53,967 bases of DNA, taken from Candidatus Tepidiaquacellales bacterium OLB4/UTCHB1 (GTDB lineage Bacteria > Bacteroidota > Ignavibacteria > Tepidaquicellales > Tepidaquicellaceae). Below are positions 238 to 11,136 of the stretch, piece by piece. The DNA lies in assembly GCA_002050165.1 (NCBI GenBank), contig MWSW01000017.1:1-53967 (forward strand). The letters run 5' to 3'. Position numbers and translations under genes: made by a program. The notes beneath the pieces were generated by a model. It was not told where the DNA came from, did not search any database, and saw only the letters and a list, made by a program, of their open reading frames with translations. Positions within the stretch are counted from its first letter, which is position 1. Each line of letters starts with the position of its first letter.

Positions 238-251
238 ACGACAAATGTCGT
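238..251. repeat. Short 6-bp inverted repeat at a stop codon
   Basis: ACGACA (238-243) and TGTCGT (246-251) pair perfectly around a 2-base centre. The repeat touches the stop codon of the cargo gene that ends at 251. With such a short loop it is more plausible as a dyad DNA site than as an RNA hairpin. Its function is not evident. Confidence 0.3.
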
Positions 252-3229
252 TATTTCAATAATACCATCCTTTTGGTTTGAACGAAATCATCCGCTTCAA
301 TTCTGTAGAAATAAACTCCGCTCGCGAAATTCGTTCCATTGAATTCATAATCGTAAGCACCTGCCTGCAATTTTTGATTTACTAATTTCACCATCTCTCT
401 TCCCAACGCATCGAAAACAACAAGTTTCACATTACTTTCAACCGGTAAACTAAAACTGATTTTAGTAAAGGGGTTAAAAGGATTTGGGAAATTCTGTGAC
501 AGCGAAAATTCATCAGGGATAATTACTTCGGACTGATTCAAACCTGAAATACCATCCGGTCCACCGGCAAAACAAATCAATCTACCCTGCCTGTTTCCTG
601 CAACAAATTCAGTTGTAAAATTTCCGTCAATGCTATTCAGAGCTGCAATTTTCTGGACAGTATAACTCGAACCGGAACCAAAACTGTAATTGAACAATAT
701 TGTTCCACTATCACCTTTAACAATATAAAAATTTCCTGCCTGAGTGCCTGCAGCTATATCGGGAATACCATCGCCGCTAACATCACTACCGACTGCAACT
801 CCATGAATGTAGTTTCCATCAAGAGAATTCGACCAAATTTGATTTCCGTTATTGGAGTTTACTCTGTATAAAGAATTTAATCCCTGAAAGGTCATGTCAA
901 CAAATCCGTTACCATCGAGGTCATTTAGTATTATCGGCACACCGAAAACGCTGTTCCCATAATTTTGCGCCCATAGTTGAGCACCTGCATCGGAAGTGAT
1001 TGCAAATACGAAACCGTTGAATCCACTGAATCCAACAATTTCCGGCTGACCGTCATTATTAATATCCGGGATCAGATTAAGCCCTGAGGTAGCTCCGGAA
1101 GTTGCATAGCTCCATAACGCCTGACCGGTATTGCTGAATCCGTTCACCGAATACGGACCGCTATTGTTAACCAGTGAAACTGCACCGCCAAGTGGGATTG
1201 TCTGAACATCATATAGAAAATTTGAACTCTGCTGAGAAACAAAAATCTCCGATCCATTTATTCCATTGAGGCAAATGACACTTCGCCTTCCCGTATTATT
1301 AGCTTCACCGCTGGCCGACACGAGTACATCTGCAATACCATCGTTGTTAAAGTCTTTGTCAACCCTTACTCCGTTAATATCACCATTACTGTAATTCACG
1401 GAATCACCATATCCCCAGATGAGAACACCCGTCCTGCCACAAATAGTATAGACGTGTTCATTGCCACCGCTGCATCCCACAACAACATCTGAAATCCCAT
1501 CGCCATTTACATCCGACCGGATTTGCATCGCATTAAAGAAATCTGAAACTGATCCGGCATTGAACTGTGATTTGTACGTGTTAAATTTCCAAAGCGTATC
1601 AGCTGTTACCGAGGAATTACCATTGTATGCAATTACCCAGTAATTGCGCGTAGGAATTATAACGTCGTTTATTCCGTCGCCGTTTATATCATCAATTTGT
1701 CTCATTGATACCGGCTTGAATTCCTGGGAGGAAGTCATTGGGTTCACCGGGATGTAAGTTTCCCACATGATATTTCCCCTGGGTATTTGCTGATTATTAC
1801 CGGAACCGGATAAAGGGATTTTTAATTGAGATGAGTTTACCGCATTTGATACTACCGTTGCTGTATCACTAAAAACACTGCCGGTTGTTGGATTGAACCA
1901 AATCCGCATTGTTCGGGTTTTTTGTGTATCAATTTGAATTGGAAAGTTATTATTAATAGTATCGAACCAAAAATTTCCAGAATTGAAATTAATATCGTTA
2001 ATTACCAGCGGTTGACTTCCTTGATTTGATATATCAAGATATCCACCACAAAGTGAACCGGTCCGCCTGTCAGACCAATTTATATAACTTTGCAGTGATG
2101 AAATATAAGCCCCATTATAAACACCACGTCCGGTTAATATAATACGTTTAACGGGTGTTGCACCGTCGTTGCTAGTTATTTTTAATGTATCGGTTACATT
2201 ACCGAAAGTTGATGGATTGAATGTTACATCATAAATTTCCGATTGTGTTGGTGCAATTGTATCCGGTAAATTATTTGGCGCAATTGAAAAATTTGATCCA
2301 TAAAAAGAAAAATCAGAAATAATTAAATCTGCCGTACCTGTGTTCTCAATGCTGATTTGCAGGTTTGAAGGTGATCCGATTACAGTGTTACCGAAGTTCA
2401 AAGAATTCGGGTTAGTTGTAATCTGAGGATTTCCCTGTCCGGAAAGATCATATACAAATAATTCACGATACAGGAATTGATTGTTACCGATTCTGTCAGC
2501 AATGAGGTAAAGATAATTGCCATCCCAGTGAATTCCTCTGGGTGAACAATTTCCATCCGGGTCGGGAGAGGGAAATGACAAAACAGTATCACCGGTTGAC
2601 CTCGAGTAAATATAAAATCTCTCCGGGTCAGGATCGGGCGAAGTATGGAAATAATCGTTTACATAAACTATGGAATCCCCAACCCCTTTCACCGAAATCC
2701 CAGTAACCTGTCTTCCCCGAAGTGGAATGGTGTCTGTTATCTGTCGTGTAGAAAGATCAATTTTAAACGCATAACCATTCGGGTAACTCGTGTAATCCGG
2801 ATGGTAAACTGCGAACCACATTCCACTACCTTCGATTGAAAGACCCGACAACCCTAACCCTGTAGTGCCAAGCAGATTCGGAATTGAAATGGAATCAGTT
2901 TTCTGTCCGTTCATATTCAACTTGAAAAATCTCCAAGATTGCGAAGTATAATTCCTTGCAACCCAAAATCCTGAACCATCCCACGCTAAACCCTGATTAA
3001 AGGTAACCCCCGTTGCAATGCTATCAACGATCTGTCCGGTTTTTGTAATCTTATAGAGATACCCGCCATTGCTCGTACCGACCCAAAGTGTGTCATTTAC
3101 TTCTGTTAAACCATAAAAAGAATTGTAACGCGAATAATTCGGGAATGGATATGAAGCAATAATCGTCTGGCTGTTTACGTTACTCAAACAAGAAAATAAA
3201 AATATTACTGACAGTACTGTTTTTCTCAT
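251..3229 (-). CDS. Secreted T9SS cargo protein with ASH (choice-of-anchor D) and FG-GAP-like repeats
   Basis: The 992-residue protein starts with a clear signal peptide (about residues 1-20, ending NVNSQ). An N-terminal propeller-like region (about 25-265) is followed by two ASH/choice-of-anchor-D-like domains (about 270-475; LNFGNTVIGS and NTGTADLIISDF are typical). About 490-895 holds a series of FG-GAP/VCBS-like calcium-loop repeats of the DVNGDGISDV type. The last ~88 residues are a type A T9SS sorting domain (FPNPFNP, LVVFDALGREM, ASGVYFYRIEA). The protein should cross the outer membrane by T9SS and be surface-attached or released. The ATG at 3229 has a strong ribosome binding site (AAGGA). 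Its ligand and role are unknown; the domains suggest adhesion or display rather than catalysis, and I see no catalytic motif. Confidence 0.9.
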   Translation of the reverse strand: MRKTVLSVIFLFSCLSNVNSQTIIASYPFPNYSRYNSFYGLTEVNDTLWVGTSNGGYLYKITKTGQIVDSIATGVTFNQGLAWDGSGFWVARNYTSQSWRFFKLNMNGQKTDSISIPNLLGTTGLGLSGLSIEGSGMWFAVYHPDYTSYPNGYAFKIDLSTRQITDTIPLRGRQVTGISVKGVGDSIVYVNDYFHTSPDPDPERFYIYSRSTGDTVLSFPSPDPDGNCSPRGIHWDGNYLYLIADRIGNNQFLYRELFVYDLSGQGNPQITTNPNSLNFGNTVIGSPSNLQISIENTGTADLIISDFSFYGSNFSIAPNNLPDTIAPTQSEIYDVTFNPSTFGNVTDTLKITSNDGATPVKRIILTGRGVYNGAYISSLQSYINWSDRRTGSLCGGYLDISNQGSQPLVINDINFNSGNFWFDTINNNFPIQIDTQKTRTMRIWFNPTTGSVFSDTATVVSNAVNSSQLKIPLSGSGNNQQIPRGNIMWETYIPVNPMTSSQEFKPVSMRQIDDINGDGINDVIIPTRNYWVIAYNGNSSVTADTLWKFNTYKSQFNAGSVSDFFNAMQIRSDVNGDGISDVVVGCSGGNEHVYTICGRTGVLIWGYGDSVNYSNGDINGVRVDKDFNNDGIADVLVSASGEANNTGRRSVICLNGINGSEIFVSQQSSNFLYDVQTIPLGGAVSLVNNSGPYSVNGFSNTGQALWSYATSGATSGLNLIPDINNDGQPEIVGFSGFNGFVFAITSDAGAQLWAQNYGNSVFGVPIILNDLDGNGFVDMTFQGLNSLYRVNSNNGNQIWSNSLDGNYIHGVAVGSDVSGDGIPDIAAGTQAGNFYIVKGDSGTILFNYSFGSGSSYTVQKIAALNSIDGNFTTEFVAGNRQGRLICFAGGPDGISGLNQSEVIIPDEFSLSQNFPNPFNPFTKISFSLPVESNVKLVVFDALGREMVKLVNQKLQAGAYDYEFNGTNFASGVYFYRIEADDFVQTKRMVLLK

Positions 3230-3250
3230 TTTAAATTCCTTTTAATTGAT

Positions 3251-3258
3251 TAAATTTG
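3251..3258 (+). promoter_or_regulatory. Candidate -7 box (TAAATTTG)
   Basis: TAAATTTG matches the Bacteroidetes primary-sigma -7 consensus TAnnTTTG, 39 bases before the TTG start at 3298. I find no convincing TTTG -33 box at the expected spacing, so the call is tentative. Confidence 0.3.
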
Positions 3259-3297
3259 AAATAAGTTATAGTTTTCGCCTATCACAAAAAAGATAAT

Positions 3298-6081
3298 TTG
3301 AAAATTTGGATTCTTATATTTTTCACCCAAATTTTATATCCTTTCACAGGTTATTCACAAAGTTCAATTAACGGAAAACTTGATACCTTGCTGATGTTGC
3401 GCGGACTGAATAGTTTCGACGTTTCAATCCCAATTGATCTGAGGTCAAGAAGTGATAATAAACTTTTACTTCCGGTAGTTGAAAGGTTTATGTACGATCC
3501 GGTTTCATATAAGAAATTTACGGATTCAGTCGCGGGATGGGATATCTTGATTGAAGACAGCCTTGTACTGAAGATGTATGAACTTCTTGATACAAATCCT
3601 ACTTTGTTGAGTCATTTCAGACCAGTTAATTCACTTCGGTTCAAGCAGGAACTTGAAAACATTTACAATGGGTACACTGAAATTTACTCAATTTTTAGTC
3701 CGAATGAACGCGAGTACCTGAGCAGAAATTTACTTTCAATAATCTCTGAAGCGGAAGATGTTGAAAGCAATATAAATGACATTTTCAAATACAACGAGGC
3801 AAGAGATAAATCAATAGAGGTAGTTAAAACCACTCTCAAGCTTCTGGAAAAAATTCCGCGCAGGGATTTATTCACATTTAACATCAGGGCATGGATGCTG
3901 TTTAACGCAATATACACCGAATTAGTAAAGAATCCCGAATCAATAATACACATTTTCCCCGAAGCTGATGACGGTTCGCTTTTTGAAGAAACGATGGAAA
4001 TAGAGTTGTTTGATGACCGGAAAATAGTTATCGGTACCGAAGGAAACGACGTTCACTACATTGACGAAAATACTTTGTTCGTCTACGATATTTCCGGAGA
4101 TGACAAGTATATCTATGAAACATCTGATGAATATTTCCATTCACCTCCACATTTACAGATAGTAATTGACCTTTCGGGCAACGACAATTATACATCAAAA
4201 TCAGATAAGTTTGGTATTGCAGGTGGCTTTGCAGGAGCTTATATGGTATTTGATGCAAAAGGTAATGATAGCTATGACGGTGGAAACCTGAGTGTGGGGT
4301 CAGTAATCAACGGTATTGCATTAATCAAAGACGGAAGCGGAAATGATTTCTATTCCGGTAATTCTTTCTCAATAGGAGCTGCCTCATTCGGCTCAGCAAT
4401 AATAATTGATAATAACGGCAACGATATTTACAGCGCAAATTCCTATTCAAAGGCATTTGGTATGACGATGGGAATCGGAAGTATTATAGATAAATCAGGG
4501 AATGACTCTTATATTATCTCTGCAAGGAATATTGATATCGGCAGATACGAGGATCATTACATTTCAATGTGTCAGGGTTATGGGTTAGGTGTCAGACCAT
4601 ATTATGCCGGCGGAATAGGTTTACTCATAGAATCAGGTGGGAATGATATTTACAATACTGATATCTTCGGACAAGGTGGTTCGTATTGGTACGCACTTGG
4701 GATGCTGATAGATAAAAGCGGACACGACAAATACAACAGTTATCAATATGCTCAGGGTTCAGGAATTCACCTCTCCGTCGGTTTCCTTACGGATTATGCA
4801 GGTTGGGATTTTTATACTTCAAACGGAGTATCGCAAGGTTGCGGTCATGATTACGGCGTCGGAATTTTACACGATGTTTCCGGAAATGATAATTACTCAG
4901 CTTACTCACTCTCACAGGGTGCCGGCAATGCAAATGGTATCGGAATTCTGATTGATGAAGAAGGACGTGACGGATACCTGAACAAGGAACCGTCAAATAC
5001 ACGCGGTTATGGAAACCCGAGACGTGAATTCGGGAGCATCGGACTTTTTGCAGATTTGGAGGGAATAGATTTCTATTCAATTCCGAATAAGGATTCATCT
5101 TTCAGCACAGGATCTTATTGGGGTGGTTTTGCTGACTTCGGTGAAATTAAAAGTCCCTGGGAAAAAACTGTTCAACAATACAAAGTTCCGGTTGACTCCA
5201 CACTGAACTATAGCATCGAACAGTATTTCATAATGGCAAAAACAATCGAACCGAGATTCTCTCTTTGGCAGGATTTCGGTGAAAAACATTTGATTTCGGA
5301 TAGCGTTCAAACAGCGCATTATATCCTCACAAAGTTGGTTTCCGAAGATCACCGTGACGGATTCCTCATCAGGAACCTAATTTTCAAAATAAATGAATCC
5401 GTGAGTTCTGTTTTTTTATCTGAGCTTGCAAAATACGAAGAGGATAATTCAATTCTGAAACCGGAAGAATTAATTTTCATTGCGTACCTTTTTGGAGAAA
5501 CGCGCGATCCGAAAGGAGCGGAGGCATTGTATAAACTTCTCTCTAATCCGGATGAGAGAGTGCGATCAGCCGCCCTCGCATCAATTGGCAAAATAAATTT
5601 CGGGACCGAATTTCAAAAATTGAAATCTGAAATTGCTTTACAAATTCGAAATTTATACGTAAAAAATGCCGGAAGTAAAACTTACAGGAAAAATATCGCA
5701 TTCGCACTTGGAAATGTGTCAGAAGATGCAAACGTTAGCACGTTAATAAATATGCTCGGGGATGATTTCTTCGGAGTCCGGTTTATAGCTGCGAAAAACC
5801 TTACTAAATTTGAAGTCGAACTTTTCAATTCCATAGTTGCCGATGTTTTTAACCTATATTCATATAATCCTCAGGCGCTCGTGCCATTTATCAGCGCAAT
5901 GAAAAATATAGAACCACAAACCATATATGAAATTTATGAACTTTATTCTTCCGTGATATCCGAGAATATAATTTACCGGTATGTGTTCACTGAAATTACC
6001 TCCGGCTCCGATAATGAGCTCCTGAATAATATAAACGGTGACGTATCGTATGGTCTGGAATTAATGCACTTTGATGAATAA
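3298..6081 (+). CDS. Secreted protein with about twelve GNDxY repeats and C-terminal HEAT repeats
   Basis: The 927-residue protein has a signal peptide (residues 1-20, ending TGYSQ) and no T9SS sorting domain, lipobox or later membrane segment. It is therefore probably periplasmic or exported by another route. A helical domain (about 25-235) precedes a tandem repeat region (about 260-620). There a motif of the form sGNDxY recurs about twelve times with a spacing of roughly 26-35 residues, and later copies carry a QGxG element. Variants include SGDDKY, KGNDSY, SGHDKY, AGWDFY and EGIDFY. Residues about 690-870 look like HEAT repeats (DERVRSAALASIGKI; FGVRFIAAKNLTKF). The start is TTG: the first internal ATG would remove the signal peptide. 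I do not know a function. The repeats could form a beta-solenoid with Asp/Asn turns able to bind calcium, which is inference. The downstream lipoprotein gene overlaps its end, so the two are probably co-expressed. Confidence 0.85.
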   Translation: MKIWILIFFTQILYPFTGYSQSSINGKLDTLLMLRGLNSFDVSIPIDLRSRSDNKLLLPVVERFMYDPVSYKKFTDSVAGWDILIEDSLVLKMYELLDTNPTLLSHFRPVNSLRFKQELENIYNGYTEIYSIFSPNEREYLSRNLLSIISEAEDVESNINDIFKYNEARDKSIEVVKTTLKLLEKIPRRDLFTFNIRAWMLFNAIYTELVKNPESIIHIFPEADDGSLFEETMEIELFDDRKIVIGTEGNDVHYIDENTLFVYDISGDDKYIYETSDEYFHSPPHLQIVIDLSGNDNYTSKSDKFGIAGGFAGAYMVFDAKGNDSYDGGNLSVGSVINGIALIKDGSGNDFYSGNSFSIGAASFGSAIIIDNNGNDIYSANSYSKAFGMTMGIGSIIDKSGNDSYIISARNIDIGRYEDHYISMCQGYGLGVRPYYAGGIGLLIESGGNDIYNTDIFGQGGSYWYALGMLIDKSGHDKYNSYQYAQGSGIHLSVGFLTDYAGWDFYTSNGVSQGCGHDYGVGILHDVSGNDNYSAYSLSQGAGNANGIGILIDEEGRDGYLNKEPSNTRGYGNPRREFGSIGLFADLEGIDFYSIPNKDSSFSTGSYWGGFADFGEIKSPWEKTVQQYKVPVDSTLNYSIEQYFIMAKTIEPRFSLWQDFGEKHLISDSVQTAHYILTKLVSEDHRDGFLIRNLIFKINESVSSVFLSELAKYEEDNSILKPEELIFIAYLFGETRDPKGAEALYKLLSNPDERVRSAALASIGKINFGTEFQKLKSEIALQIRNLYVKNAGSKTYRKNIAFALGNVSEDANVSTLINMLGDDFFGVRFIAAKNLTKFEVELFNSIVADVFNLYSYNPQALVPFISAMKNIEPQTIYEIYELYSSVISENIIYRYVFTEITSGSDNELLNNINGDVSYGLELMHFDE

Positions 6082-6778
6082 AGTATTAGCATTATTGTTT
6101 TTCATTTTCCTGCTATTCCTGAGCTCGTGTATAAACTATGAACAAAAGACTGTCCTGAAAAATGACGGTAGCGGGAGTATGGTAATCACTTACTCAACGA
6201 AAAATTTTAATATCATAGGTGAGGAAATTTTTGGATTCGGATTTACCGATTCTAAAATCCGTGAAAATTTCTCATCTCCGGATATTGTCATCAAATGGAT
6301 TGATGTAAACAAATACGAACTTGACTCTACAACGCATGTGAGAGTTGATATAAATTTTAAAAACTTCTACACCCTTCCAAAAGCCAAAGCATTCCGAAAA
6401 GTAAAACCGTCCTTTGAGGTTTACCCTGATAGTATAAATTTTTCATTTACGATTTTAGAAGATTCATCAAATGCTATAATTGAAGGTATGGACAAATTTA
6501 AATTGTATTTCGATTTTGAATTTGAAGGCGATGTTATTGAGACAAACGGAACTGTTTCCGGAAACGTGGTCAGATGGGAATATTCAATTGCAGACTTATC
6601 CGAAAATATCGTGATGAAAGCTAAAATAAACAATAAGCCTTCTGGATGCGGCTTATTCGGAATTGAACTATTCGGTGTTTTAATTTTCGGTATCATATTG
6701 AAGGAACGGAAATTCCAGGCACGAATGGTTTCGTACTTCAGCAATTTATCGCAACTATTCAAATCCAAAAACATCTGA
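6074..6778 (+). CDS. Lipoprotein with C-terminal membrane segment, function unknown
   Basis: The 234-residue product starts with a hydrophobic signal and a lipobox (FLSSC), so it should be lipidated at Cys18. The body (about 20-190) begins EQKTVLKNDGSGSM and appears beta-rich, followed by a second hydrophobic stretch near 195-212 (GLFGIELFGVLIFGIIL) and a short basic tail. A lipoprotein signal plus a near-C-terminal membrane helix resembles LppM/DUF3153-like layouts, but I do not claim membership. The ATG at 6074 overlaps the preceding gene by 8 bases; a TTG directly precedes it and is a less likely start. The overlap suggests translational coupling with the GNDxY-repeat protein. Confidence 0.75.
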   Translation: MNKVLALLFFIFLLFLSSCINYEQKTVLKNDGSGSMVITYSTKNFNIIGEEIFGFGFTDSKIRENFSSPDIVIKWIDVNKYELDSTTHVRVDINFKNFYTLPKAKAFRKVKPSFEVYPDSINFSFTILEDSSNAIIEGMDKFKLYFDFEFEGDVIETNGTVSGNVVRWEYSIADLSENIVMKAKINNKPSGCGLFGIELFGVLIFGIILKERKFQARMVSYFSNLSQLFKSKNI

Positions 6779-6879
6779 CTTCAATAGACGGAGTTAATTT
6801 TTAAAAATATTTTTATCTATTCTCAACTATCCACAAATTTATACCACATTAGTAAATTGTAGAAAATTTTATATATGGA

Positions 6880-6887
6880 TATATTTA
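6880..6887 (+). promoter_or_regulatory. Candidate -7 box very close to a start codon (TATATTTA)
   Basis: TATATTTA ends only 6 bases before the ATG at 6894, which has no Shine-Dalgarno. It differs from TAnnTTTG by its last base. If it is a promoter box, the transcript would be nearly leaderless. Similar spacing is seen before the genes starting at 19064, 25401 (minus) and 27386. Confidence 0.3.
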
Positions 6888-6893
6888 AGCGAT

Positions 6894-8054
6894 ATGATAA
6901 AATCGCTGTTAAAAATAATCCTTACAGTTTTTATTCCATTCCAAATTGTAAACGCTCACGACTTTTCCAAAATAGACAACTTTATACTCTCAGGAATTTC
7001 AAACCATTACTTTCCCGGTGCGCAATTAGTAGTCGGTAACAGCAGAGGGATTATTTATTCCGAAAGTTTCGGTTACATTGATTACGAATCGGATGTAAAA
7101 GTAACAACGCATACTCTATATGACCTTGCCTCACTTACAAAAGTAATAGCTACTACTACTGCAATAATGAAATTGTACGAAGAAAAAAAAATTGACCTCT
7201 ACGATGTAGTTTCCTATTACATCCCTGAATTTGAAAAAAACGGTAAAAAATATATCAGGATCAGAAATCTTCTATTACATAATTCGGGACTCAGGGCATG
7301 GATCCCGTTTTATCAGACCTGCGAGAGTAAAGACGATGTGATTAATGCGATTTGTGACGAAACATTAGTTTCAGAGCCCGGCGAGGTTACGATTTACAGC
7401 GACCTTAATGCTGTACTGCTTGGTGAAATCATAGAACGGGTAACCGGGATGTCGCTTGATGATTATTGTGAACTGGAAATTTTTAAACCTCTCGGGATGA
7501 ACAATACTTTTTTCAATCCAAAGGATGTCAACAGGAATTCAATTGCACCAACTGAATACGATAAGATATGGAGGGGGAGGCTACTGCAAGGTGAAGTTCA
7601 TGACGAAACCGCTGCTGTCATGGGCGGTGTATCCGGGAATGCGGGATTATTTTCAACTGCGGAAGATGTTGCAGTGATAATGCAAATGCTCCTTAATCAT
7701 GGAGATTACATCAACCAGAACTCCACAAACGATAATGAAAAACATTTTTTATCCGAACTGACAGTAGAAAAATTCACTACAAAAGAGCTTTCATCCGAGA
7801 CTTCTTCTTCACGTGCTTTTGGCTGGGATACGAAGCCCGAACCTACAAAATGGGGTCGCCCTTGTGGAGAATTAATTTCAGAAAACTGTTTCGGCCATAC
7901 CGGTTATACCGGCACAAGCGTGTGGGCTGATAAAGACAGGGACCTTTTCATCGTATTCCTGACTAACAGGGTTTTTCCGACACGCGACAATTTGGGTATT
8001 CTGGAGTTCAGACCTGAACTGCACAACATGATTATAGAATTATTAGAAAACTAA
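6894..8054 (+). CDS. Exported serine hydrolase of the class C beta-lactamase/penicillin-binding family
   Basis: The 386-residue protein has an N-terminal signal (residues 1-21) and the full motif set of the beta-lactamase-related (S12) serine hydrolases. These are SxxK as S80-L-T-K83 in DLASLTKVIA, a YxN-like motif as YSDLN near residue 165, and a KTG-like box as HTG in CFGHTGYTGT near 330. In this family the serine is acylated by its substrate. Known members include D-amino-acid peptidases, esterases and beta-lactamases, so the substrate cannot be read from sequence. The location is expected to be periplasmic. The gene stands 115 bases after the lipoprotein gene and 12 bases before the aldehyde dehydrogenase gene. 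I would not predict antibiotic resistance from this alone. Confidence 0.88.
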   Translation: MIKSLLKIILTVFIPFQIVNAHDFSKIDNFILSGISNHYFPGAQLVVGNSRGIIYSESFGYIDYESDVKVTTHTLYDLASLTKVIATTTAIMKLYEEKKIDLYDVVSYYIPEFEKNGKKYIRIRNLLLHNSGLRAWIPFYQTCESKDDVINAICDETLVSEPGEVTIYSDLNAVLLGEIIERVTGMSLDDYCELEIFKPLGMNNTFFNPKDVNRNSIAPTEYDKIWRGRLLQGEVHDETAAVMGGVSGNAGLFSTAEDVAVIMQMLLNHGDYINQNSTNDNEKHFLSELTVEKFTTKELSSETSSSRAFGWDTKPEPTKWGRPCGELISENCFGHTGYTGTSVWADKDRDLFIVFLTNRVFPTRDNLGILEFRPELHNMIIELLEN

Positions 8055-8066
8055 AGAACAATAAAA

Positions 8067-9623
8067 ATGGGAATTTCAAAATTTAAAAACGAACCGTTCA
8101 CAGACTTTTCATCGAAAAAGGAAAAAAAGGCTTTTTTAAAATCTCTTGATAAAATTAAATCAAGATTTAATAATGAATATCCGATCAGGATTGGTAAAGA
8201 GAAGATTTTCACGGAGACAAAATTCGCATCTCACAACCCATCTAACTCCGATCAGATTGTAGGTGTTTTTCAAAAGGGAACAGCAGACCATGCAGATAAA
8301 TGCGTTAAGGTGGCGCACGAAACATTCGGAGATTGGAGCAGAGTTTCTCCAAAGAAACGTTCAGACTATCTGCTCAAAGCAGCAAAGTTAATGAGAAAAC
8401 GCAAACACGATTTTTCCGCAATGATGGTTTACGAAGTCGGAAAGAACTGGGCTGAAGCAGATGGTGACACAGCTGAGGCGATTGACTTTTTAGAGTTTTA
8501 TGCCCGTGAGATGCTGAGGTACGCTGAAGATCAACCGCTAACCAAAATTAAAGGTGAACTGAACAAACTTACCTATATCCCACTCGGAACATGTGTAATT
8601 ATTCCGCCGTGGAACTTCCCTCTGGCAATACTCGTAGGTATGACAACTGCTGCGATAGTCGCCGGTAATACTGTCGTTCTGAAACCTTCAAGCGACTCCC
8701 CCGCTATCGCACAAATGTTTGTTGAACTTATGGAGGAAGTCGGATTACCTGACGGAGTTTTAAATTTCATTACAGGTGGTGGTGGTACGATCGGCGATGT
8801 TTTGGTTGAACATCCATTAACGAGGTTGATTGCTTTTACCGGTTCTATGGAAGTTGGTTTAAGGGTAAACGAACTTGCAGCGAAAAAACAACCTTCGCAA
8901 ATTTGGATTAAGAGGGTTATTGCTGAGATGGGCGGAAAAGATAGTATAATAATTGACAAGGATCTCCACAACTTCGATGATGCCGTTGCAGGTGTGCTTT
9001 CATCTGCTTTCGGGTTTTCAGGACAGAAATGCTCGGCATGTTCAAGAGTGATAGTACACGAAAAAATTTACGATAAATTTTGTGATGCGCTCGCTGAGCA
9101 GGTTAAATCAATTAATGTTGGCGAAACAGTTGATAATCCTAAAATGGGTCCGGTCATCAATAAAAAATCAAAAGACAGTATTCTTAGTTACATTCAAAAG
9201 GGCGTAGATGAAGGCGGTACAATAATTGCCGGCGGAAAAGAGATTGAATCAAAAGGTTATTTCGTCGAACCTACAATCATAAAAAATGTCTCACCTAAAG
9301 ATACCATTGCACAAGAAGAGATTTTCGGACCAGTGCTTGCTGTCATTAAATCAAGTGGATTTGATGATTCGCTTGATATAGCAAATAATACAATGTTTGG
9401 ATTAACCGGCGCAGTATATTCAAAAAATCCGAAAAAACTCGAAAGAGCTGCTGATGAATTTCACGTAGGAAACCTTTATATGAACAGAAAATGTACGGGC
9501 GCATTAGTTGGTGTTCATCCTTTTGGTGGATTTAACATGAGCGGGACCGATTCGAAGGCAGGTGGCAGGGATTACCTCCAACTGTTTACTCAAGCTAAAC
9601 TTGTAAGCAATAAAATTAAATAA
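8067..9623 (+). CDS. rocA: L-glutamate gamma-semialdehyde (delta-1-pyrroline-5-carboxylate) dehydrogenase
   Basis: This 518-residue enzyme is an aldehyde dehydrogenase whose best fit is the monofunctional P5C dehydrogenase group. It oxidises glutamate-gamma-semialdehyde to glutamate with NAD+, the second step of proline degradation. The general base is E287 (AEMGGKD) and the catalytic cysteine is C322 in FGFSGQKCSACSR, a signature typical of P5C dehydrogenases. The NAD-binding segment IIPPWNFPLAI is at about 178-188. Length is normal for the group. It is cytoplasmic. No proline dehydrogenase gene is adjacent. A small lipoprotein gene follows after one base. The symbol rocA versus pruA is a naming choice. 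Confidence 0.9.
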   Translation: MGISKFKNEPFTDFSSKKEKKAFLKSLDKIKSRFNNEYPIRIGKEKIFTETKFASHNPSNSDQIVGVFQKGTADHADKCVKVAHETFGDWSRVSPKKRSDYLLKAAKLMRKRKHDFSAMMVYEVGKNWAEADGDTAEAIDFLEFYAREMLRYAEDQPLTKIKGELNKLTYIPLGTCVIIPPWNFPLAILVGMTTAAIVAGNTVVLKPSSDSPAIAQMFVELMEEVGLPDGVLNFITGGGGTIGDVLVEHPLTRLIAFTGSMEVGLRVNELAAKKQPSQIWIKRVIAEMGGKDSIIIDKDLHNFDDAVAGVLSSAFGFSGQKCSACSRVIVHEKIYDKFCDALAEQVKSINVGETVDNPKMGPVINKKSKDSILSYIQKGVDEGGTIIAGGKEIESKGYFVEPTIIKNVSPKDTIAQEEIFGPVLAVIKSSGFDDSLDIANNTMFGLTGAVYSKNPKKLERAADEFHVGNLYMNRKCTGALVGVHPFGGFNMSGTDSKAGGRDYLQLFTQAKLVSNKIK

Positions 9624-9624
9624 C

Positions 9625-9906
9625 ATGAAGAAAACAAAATTCATTATCGCCACATTAATCTTGACCGGAATACTATCGTGTGATTTCATCACTGATAAAA
9701 TTCAGCAAACAGCGGAAGACAAGGTTAAAGAGGAAATTCAAAAATCTCTCGAAGATCAAAACATTAATGTCAATATTGACTCAAGCAGGAAAATGCTCGA
9801 TTCTATCCTGAAATCAATTAACTCTGATTCAATTAAAATGGAGATTGATTCTGCAATGAAAGAACTTGAGAAAATCCAAAAAGACTTAAACAATAAGAAT
9901 AATTAA
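9625..9906 (+). CDS. Small lipoprotein with a charged helical body
   Basis: The 93-residue product has a lipoprotein signal with lipobox GILSC (Cys19). The remainder is charged and predicted mostly helical, with heptad-like stretches (DKVKEEIQKSLEDQ, MDSAMKELEKIQKDL-type sequence) that suggest a short coiled coil. It has no catalytic motif. It starts one base after the aldehyde dehydrogenase stop and ends 12 bases before sucC, so it is read as part of the same transcript. The family is not recognised. Confidence 0.65.
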   Translation: MKKTKFIIATLILTGILSCDFITDKIQQTAEDKVKEEIQKSLEDQNINVNIDSSRKMLDSILKSINSDSIKMEIDSAMKELEKIQKDLNNKNN

Positions 9907-9918
9907 ACTCAACTGTAT

Positions 9919-11136
9919 ATGAAACTTCATGAATATCAGGCGAAATCATTATTAAAAAAATTCGGCGTTACTGTACAAGATGGTCATGCATTAAACGATC
10001 TAAGGTACTTCGACGACGCTGTTAATGATTTAATGAAAAGGGGTATTAGTGAATTTGTAGTAAAATCCCAGATTCACGCCGGTGGCAGAGGCAAAGGTGT
10101 TATTTACAACCAGCATAATCCGAATGAAATTGTTGTCGAAGGTGGCGTAAAATATTTCGGGAGCGATGTTAAAGGCGCAAAAGAATACGCAAGTAAGTTG
10201 CTCGGAAATATACTCGTCACCCATCAAACCGGTCCTGAAGGCAAACAAGTTCGGACAATTTATGTTACTGAGGGTCTGAATTACAAAAAGGAACTCTATC
10301 TCGGAATACTTTTAGATCGGGAAAAGTCAAAAAATGTCATAATGGCATCAACCGAAGGTGGCGTTGAAATTGAGAAAGTCGCCGAAGAAACCCCCGATAA
10401 AATTATTAAAGTCTGGATTGACCCGGAAGTCGGTTTATCCGGTTACAAATCCCGGGAACTCGGTTATGGACTTGGACTTGAAGGAAATGCATTTAAGGAT
10501 TTCATTAAGTTTATAAATAATCTTTATCGTGCGTATGAAGAACTTGATGCATCCCTAATTGAAGTTAATCCTTTGGTAATAAGCAGTGACGATAAAATTA
10601 TTGCATTGGACGCAAAAGTTACAATTGATGATAATTCTCTTTTCAGGCACAAAGATATAGCTGAGATGAGGGATACAAATGAAGAGGATCCTCTCGAGGT
10701 TGAAGCTTCAAAATCGAATCTCAATTATATAAAGCTTGACGGAAATGTAGGATGTATGGTTAACGGTGCCGGACTTGCAATGGCATCAATGGATCTCATT
10801 AAGCTCGCCGGAGGTGAGCCTGCAAACTTCCTCGATGTTGGTGGTACAGCATCAGCGGAAACTGTTGAAAACGGGTTCAGAATAATCCTATCTGATCCAA
10901 ACGTCAAAGCAATCCTGATTAATATTTTCGGTGGTATCGTCAGATGTGACAGAGTTGCGCAGGGGGTTATTCAAGCTGCAAAAAACATTAATATTCAGGT
11001 ACCTGTTGTTGTCAGACTGCAAGGGACAAATTCAGTTGAAGCCAGAAAAATGCTTGATGAGTCCGGTTTAAAACTTATTCCCGCTGATACCCTTCAGGAT
11101 GCGGCCCAAAAAGTAACTGAAGCTATTGCAGCATAA
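9919..11136 (+). CDS. sucC: Succinate-CoA ligase (ADP-forming) beta subunit
   Basis: The 405-residue protein opens with the diagnostic MKLHEYQAKSLLKKFGV and carries an ATP-grasp nucleotide-binding fold with HAGGRGKG near residue 55. LIEVNPL lies near 214, and the C-terminal ligase/CoA domain includes the FGGIVRCD segment. With SucD it interconverts succinyl-CoA, ADP and phosphate with succinate, CoA and ATP in the citric acid cycle. Only the beta subunit is here: the next gene is a purine enzyme, so sucD must be elsewhere. It is cytoplasmic. Confidence 0.95.
   Translation: MKLHEYQAKSLLKKFGVTVQDGHALNDLRYFDDAVNDLMKRGISEFVVKSQIHAGGRGKGVIYNQHNPNEIVVEGGVKYFGSDVKGAKEYASKLLGNILVTHQTGPEGKQVRTIYVTEGLNYKKELYLGILLDREKSKNVIMASTEGGVEIEKVAEETPDKIIKVWIDPEVGLSGYKSRELGYGLGLEGNAFKDFIKFINNLYRAYEELDASLIEVNPLVISSDDKIIALDAKVTIDDNSLFRHKDIAEMRDTNEEDPLEVEASKSNLNYIKLDGNVGCMVNGAGLAMASMDLIKLAGGEPANFLDVGGTASAETVENGFRIILSDPNVKAILINIFGGIVRCDRVAQGVIQAAKNINIQVPVVVRLQGTNSVEARKMLDESGLKLIPADTLQDAAQKVTEAIAA

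Follow-up and report, generated by a model that had tools for sequence, protein, structure and literature searches.

We describe a 927-residue protein, encoded in a stretch of 53,967 nucleotides (hereafter the window), which we consider, with a probability of roughly 0.6, to represent an undescribed family of exported solenoid proteins bearing a conserved candidate site for binding or catalysis. Its strongest feature is a set of conserved residues lying outside the repeat motif, which a first-pass annotation of the same DNA had not mentioned. In the mechanism that we propose, a helical cap would lead into a right-handed beta-solenoid made of coils of about 27 residues and then into a HEAT arm, the whole acting as an exported protein. 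The turn D-x-x-G-[N/D]-D-x-Y, present once per coil, would probably hold one Ca2+ each, as in antifreeze and RTX solenoids. Loops that follow a Q-G-x-G segment on four successive coils would carry Arg433, Tyr463-Trp464, His491 and Asp518, and these residues, stacked into a single surface line, may constitute a ligand-binding or catalytic site.

Predicted architecture and resemblance to known solenoids

The gene and the parts of its product are the following:

3298..6081, + strand: GNDxY solenoid-HEAT protein, 927 aa, putatively exported (open reading frame with a TTG start; homologues)
3298..3360, + strand: hydrophobic N-terminus, probable signal peptide, MKIWILIFFTQILYPFTGYSQ (sequence; same kind of start in homologues)
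3367..3987, + strand: predicted helical N-terminal domain (helices at aa 24-219 in the full-length AlphaFold2 model; no Pfam match)
3994..5097, + strand: predicted beta-solenoid at aa 233-600, with some 12 coils of about 27 residues each (AlphaFold2 model of the region, fold matches)
4039..5076, + strand: 13 G-x-D-x-[YFH] turns (D-x-x-G-[N/D]-D-x-Y), proposed Ca2+ ladder (motif count, alignment)
5215..6027, + strand: HEAT/ARM-like C-terminal array, aa 640-910 (PF13646, AlphaFold2 helices, alphaRep matches)

The N-terminus is hydrophobic and its last residues read ..GYSQ, from which we infer export by way of an N-terminal signal. Pfam searches revealed no T9SS sorting domain (PF18962 or CHU_C) in the protein at E values up to 10, as the first-pass annotation had stated; PF18962 is found instead in the divergent upstream gene. 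With no C-terminal sorting domain, the protein was not taken to be a T9SS cargo. The HEAT repeats said to follow the GNDxY region were recovered as PF13646 (HEAT_2) at aa 728-767 (38.6 bits for a cutoff of 27.7). A Pfam scan found HEAT_2 in 29 of 30 homologues, and the C-terminal array aligns with alphaRep HEAT-like designs at a Z-score of about 17 with the VIA structural aligner. No Pfam model covers the repeat region in the window protein or in 29 homologues, no NCBIfam or PHROG model falls on it, and a literature search for the GNDxY-type motif returned nothing relevant.

The annotation had counted about twelve GNDxY-type copies, mostly 26-35 residues apart; the repeats are indeed present, but they number 13 and their period is tighter, at 27. 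The pattern G-x-D-x-[YFH] occurs 14 times in the protein: 13 occurrences lie at aa 248-593, with successive spacings of 18, 27, 28, 26, 26, 27, 47, 27, 27, 27, 27 and 33 residues, and the fourteenth stands alone in the HEAT part. Shuffled copies of the protein contain 0.8 such motifs on average and five at most (2000 shuffles). When 11 coils are compared in 78 distinct homologues (858 places), G-x-D keeps its Asp in 846 places and its Gly in 849, and the Asp upstream of it is kept in 797. The paired Asp residues of each coil are at most consistent with Ca2+ binding.

An AlphaFold2 model of the full-length protein, computed with 30 full-length homologues, displays a helical N-domain, a beta-solenoid and a HEAT arm (pLDDT 74.8). 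Because a Foldseek search with this model matched the HEAT arm only, the solenoid was also folded separately, using 50 solenoid sequences, and reached a pLDDT of 90.6 and a pTM of 0.90. The solenoid suggested by the first-pass annotation is thus confidently predicted. Foldseek found nothing in the PDB for the solenoid model at E <= 0.001; VIA was run on Foldseek's candidate structures, where the top solved match is a Ca2+-dependent solenoid domain, region IV of MpAFP, the Marinomonas primoryensis antifreeze protein (Z 22.3, rmsd 2.8, 260 aligned residues, 18% identity), ranking above CsgA, PL6 lyases and other right-handed beta-helices. A solenoid profile gave chance-level matches only against the sequences of solved structures (cytochrome c3, E 0.017), and nothing usable came from a viral fold library. 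When repeats are perfect, AlphaFold2 can predict solenoids too readily (PMC11795689); that the coils are imperfect and divergent and the alignment diverse lessens this worry but does not remove it. On the basis of the model, we assign the repeat region to the right-handed beta-solenoids.

MpAFP region IV binds Ca2+ and is built from 13 repeats, each about 19 residues long, whose consensus is xGTGNDxuxuGGxuxGxux (PMC3492233). Like this domain (PDB 3p4g), the window protein is modelled as a right-handed solenoid in which every coil has a single G-N-D turn with x-hydrophobic after it, and this shared turn makes Ca2+ ladders plausible by analogy. The two show no detectable sequence homology, however. 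The coils of the window protein have 27 residues rather than 19, and they include an additional Q-G-x-G segment and an R-YW-H-D site. They also lack the Thr/Asn ice-binding array: of 600 coil positions, just 13 have Thr before G-N-D as the antifreeze protein does, which leaves ice binding in the manner of MpAFP unsupported. The Gly/Asn-Asp turns and the Ca2+-type ladder also recall RTX repeats (hemolysin-type calcium-binding, GGxGxDxUx), but the solenoid is without the nonapeptide and has one turn per coil where RTX has two; RTX block V structures match it weakly (Z of about 6). RTX membership was rejected, as no RTX Pfam model appears among 30 homologues and the period is 27, not 9 or 18. Parallel beta-helix polysaccharide lyases fall in the same broad fold class (Z 17.9 for the PL6 alginate lyase 7o7a, about 11 for pectate lyases), and the site proposed below would likewise sit in loops beside a beta-sheet. 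Their repeat is different, however, and no homologue scanned matches a Pfam family of polysaccharide lyases or beta-helix CAZymes.

A candidate site on four successive coils

The conserved residues map to the following positions:

4594..4596, + strand: Arg433 of the conserved site (100% in 71 of 78 homologues; Y, E or P in the other 7)
4684..4689, + strand: Tyr463-Trp464 of the conserved site (100% in 71 of 78)
4768..4770, + strand: His491 of the conserved site (100% in 71 of 78; N or Y in the other 7)
4849..4851, + strand: Asp518 of the conserved site (100% in 71 of 78)

R433, Y463-W464, H491 and H517-D518 each come after the Q-G-x-G of one of four consecutive coils. The five site residues are invariant in the same 71 of 78 homologues, across architectures with a HEAT arm, with a PDZ domain or with neither; apart from Gly and the repeat motif, only Q385, Q426 and Q459, the Gln of the Q-G step, match this conservation. 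Coils 322 to 374 vary at the corresponding places. Since equivalent places of successive coils stack, the five residues would form one surface line, as judged by repeat register rather than by measured distances.

The seven homologues devoid of the site are all of the HEAT type and all belong to one family, f17, whose genomes additionally encode paralogues of the PDZ or short type in which the site is intact (L160, L182, L183). R433 is replaced in them by Y, E or P and H491 by N or Y, and W464 and D518 are retained in part of the clade. They form a single clade with a support of 100/96, in a tree whose alignment contained the site columns (5 of 380), so that the loss is most simply read as having arisen once. 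These seven proteins retain both the repeats (motif Asp in 65 of 70 places) and the HEAT arm. As the fold signature persists in this clade without R433 and H491, these two residues appear unneeded for the fold, and function accounts better than folding for the invariance of the site elsewhere. From these sequence comparisons, we conclude that R433 and H491 are probably functional rather than required for the fold. The longest end branches in the tree (1.7 and 2.2) belong to two of the site-less proteins, L157 and L180, in keeping with relaxed constraint once the site was lost.

A carbohydrate would best fit an aromatic pair placed near Arg, His and Asp on a beta-helix, which weakly favors a glycan as ligand. 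We may thus speculate that the ligand is an envelope glycan, either cut or merely bound, but we hold this idea tentatively. Equally tentative is the notion of a new exported enzyme family, in which an RTX-like Ca2+ solenoid would display an Arg-Tyr-Trp-His-Asp active site along four coils, with swappable PDZ or HEAT arms and one site-less pseudoenzyme lineage.

We may also hypothesize that the protein is a structural or adhesive Ca2+ solenoid, a rigid exported spacer whose conserved residues serve packing or coil register. Conservation is indeed dominated by the repeats, the Gly-rich turns and the Ca2+-type Asp ladder, and among solved structures the protein most resembles an ice-binding adhesin domain (PMC3492233). 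Such a spacer seems unlikely, however, given that three architectures share five invariant non-repeat residues although their equivalents in other coils vary, and that one clade retains the fold signature without R433 and H491.

Solenoid settings, distribution and gene neighborhood

Homologues of the 927-aa protein were found in 37 of 59 relatives, the named ones being Ignavibacteria and Bacteroidetes bins. Among 294 class genomes sampled, the solenoid profile detected family members in 97, about a third, representing 49 of 152 genera and at least 15 GTDB families; all homologues belong to one GTDB class, that of the cellular genomes searched. Some genomes carry three solenoid genes (for example, G056, G346 and G352). 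Single-sequence searches of phages and plasmids gave no solenoid match, and viral contigs contained no solenoid relative.

The solenoid occurs in three settings: with a C-terminal HEAT arm, with a longer N-terminus matching PDZ, and in a short form with neither. PDZ_2 scores above the cutoff in L084 and L175 and under it in L085, L159, L174, L182 and L183. The C-terminal arm of the window protein resembles HEAT-repeat proteins and alphaRep, with the difference that the solenoid carries such an arm in just one of its three settings. HEAT or PDZ domains, interchangeable on one solenoid, would probably recruit a protein partner. The presence of an N-terminal PDZ_2 in one subfamily and of HEAT in another may suggest an envelope quality-control or chaperone-like factor, whose arm would capture clients while the five residues bind a metal, a cofactor or a peptide; His, Asp, Tyr and Trp are able to bind metal or peptide. 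We regard this as doubtful and rather improbable, as no homologue scanned has a protease or oxidoreductase domain and the arms vary by subfamily whereas the site on the solenoid is constant.

The gene is flanked by the following neighbors:

6074..6778, + strand: LppM-like lipoprotein with a C-terminal Cys-Gly-x-Phe-Gly tail and a second membrane segment (PF21946, synteny; judged not to be a partner)
6894..8054, + strand: beta-lactamase-family serine hydrolase (PF00144, 224 bits), which stays beside the lipoprotein also where the solenoid gene is missing
251..3229, - strand: divergent T9SS-tailed FG-GAP/propeller protein (PF18962), an upstream neighbor conserved in the family

The description of the next gene in the first-pass annotation proved accurate: its open reading frame (ATG at 6074) overlaps that of the solenoid protein by 8 nt and encodes a lipoprotein whose lipobox reads LFLSSC (Cys19) and which has another hydrophobic segment around aa 189-211. 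The window lipoprotein scores 26.0 bits for PF21946 (LppM), just under the cutoff of 27, and all 24 lipoprotein relatives match this model at E <= 0.01 (best 3.6e-9); a lipoprotein profile found no match among the sequences of solved structures. Mycobacterium LppM (Rv2171, 2NC8) binds phosphatidylinositol mannosides (PMC6151718). Compared with the LppM domain, the lipoprotein family adds an invariant C-terminal CG-x-FG tail. LppM-domain lipoproteins form a multi-copy family that is present in many genomes without the solenoid.

The LppM-type lipoproteins of this taxonomic order (L111-L135) carry an invariant Cys-Gly-x-Phe-Gly-x-Glu-(L/F)-Pro, followed by a hydrophobic stretch and basic residues. 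The motif lies mostly 24-33 residues from the end and resembles tripartite C-terminal sorting tails with Cys; no convincing match to named CTERM models was obtained. All 24 occurrences of the C-terminal motif, in 20 genomes, belong to the LppM-type family. The tail is longer and altered in the window lipoprotein (6647-6775).

Of the 15 same-family genomes that could be tested, 9 have the solenoid and lipoprotein genes side by side; none of 13 sister-family genomes shows this arrangement. The T9SS gene, the lipoprotein and the hydrolase follow one another with no intervening solenoid gene in G005, G014 and G026, and in the first two of these the gap is about 150-235 nt and contains no remnant of the motif. 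In G007, of the same family, the lipoprotein has the T9SS gene and/or the hydrolase as its direct neighbor, again without an intervening solenoid gene. G004 has the trio intact and its solenoid gene on another contig. A periplasmic solenoid held at the membrane by this lipoprotein, as the first-pass annotation had proposed, could be argued from the overlap and from the adjacency within the family; however, the pair is adjacent in none of the sister-family genomes, the lipoprotein and hydrolase keep their order in other genomes with no solenoid gene beside them, each gene occurs without the other and solenoid genes outside the taxonomic order have different neighbors, so that docking is very improbable and the lipoprotein is probably a bystander.

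No constant partner of the solenoid emerged across the neighborhoods compared. In families f14 and f15, one flank of the solenoid gene is usually occupied by an rqcH-like gene and the opposite flank by ribD and/or a TPR gene, whereas in other families outside the window's own it is bordered by unrelated genes; at the f14/f15 loci L096-L099 and L104 it overlaps the rqcH-like (NFACT) gene or is a few bases from it, and the TPR gene product is exported. In one genome (G138, L070), a RibD C-terminal domain and, after it, the solenoid share a single open frame. In another (G327), the gene beside the solenoid gene (L101:3791-4888) has SBP_bac_3, Lig_chan and Ion_trans_2 matches and resembles a bacterial ionotropic glutamate receptor. 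The wider order in the window (251-11136) comprises the T9SS FG-GAP protein, the solenoid protein, the lipoprotein, the beta-lactamase-family hydrolase, an aldehyde dehydrogenase, a small lipoprotein and sucC; it is retained in several genera of the family (L105 and L106; partly in L107 and L108).

Significance of the family

RTX-like in its predicted construction, this solenoid family has no model in Pfam, NCBIfam or PHROGs. The PDZ, HEAT and site-less versions offer natural comparisons within it. With five residues that are invariant and yet appear dispensable for the fold, a repeat protein of obscure role becomes one with a directly testable candidate site.
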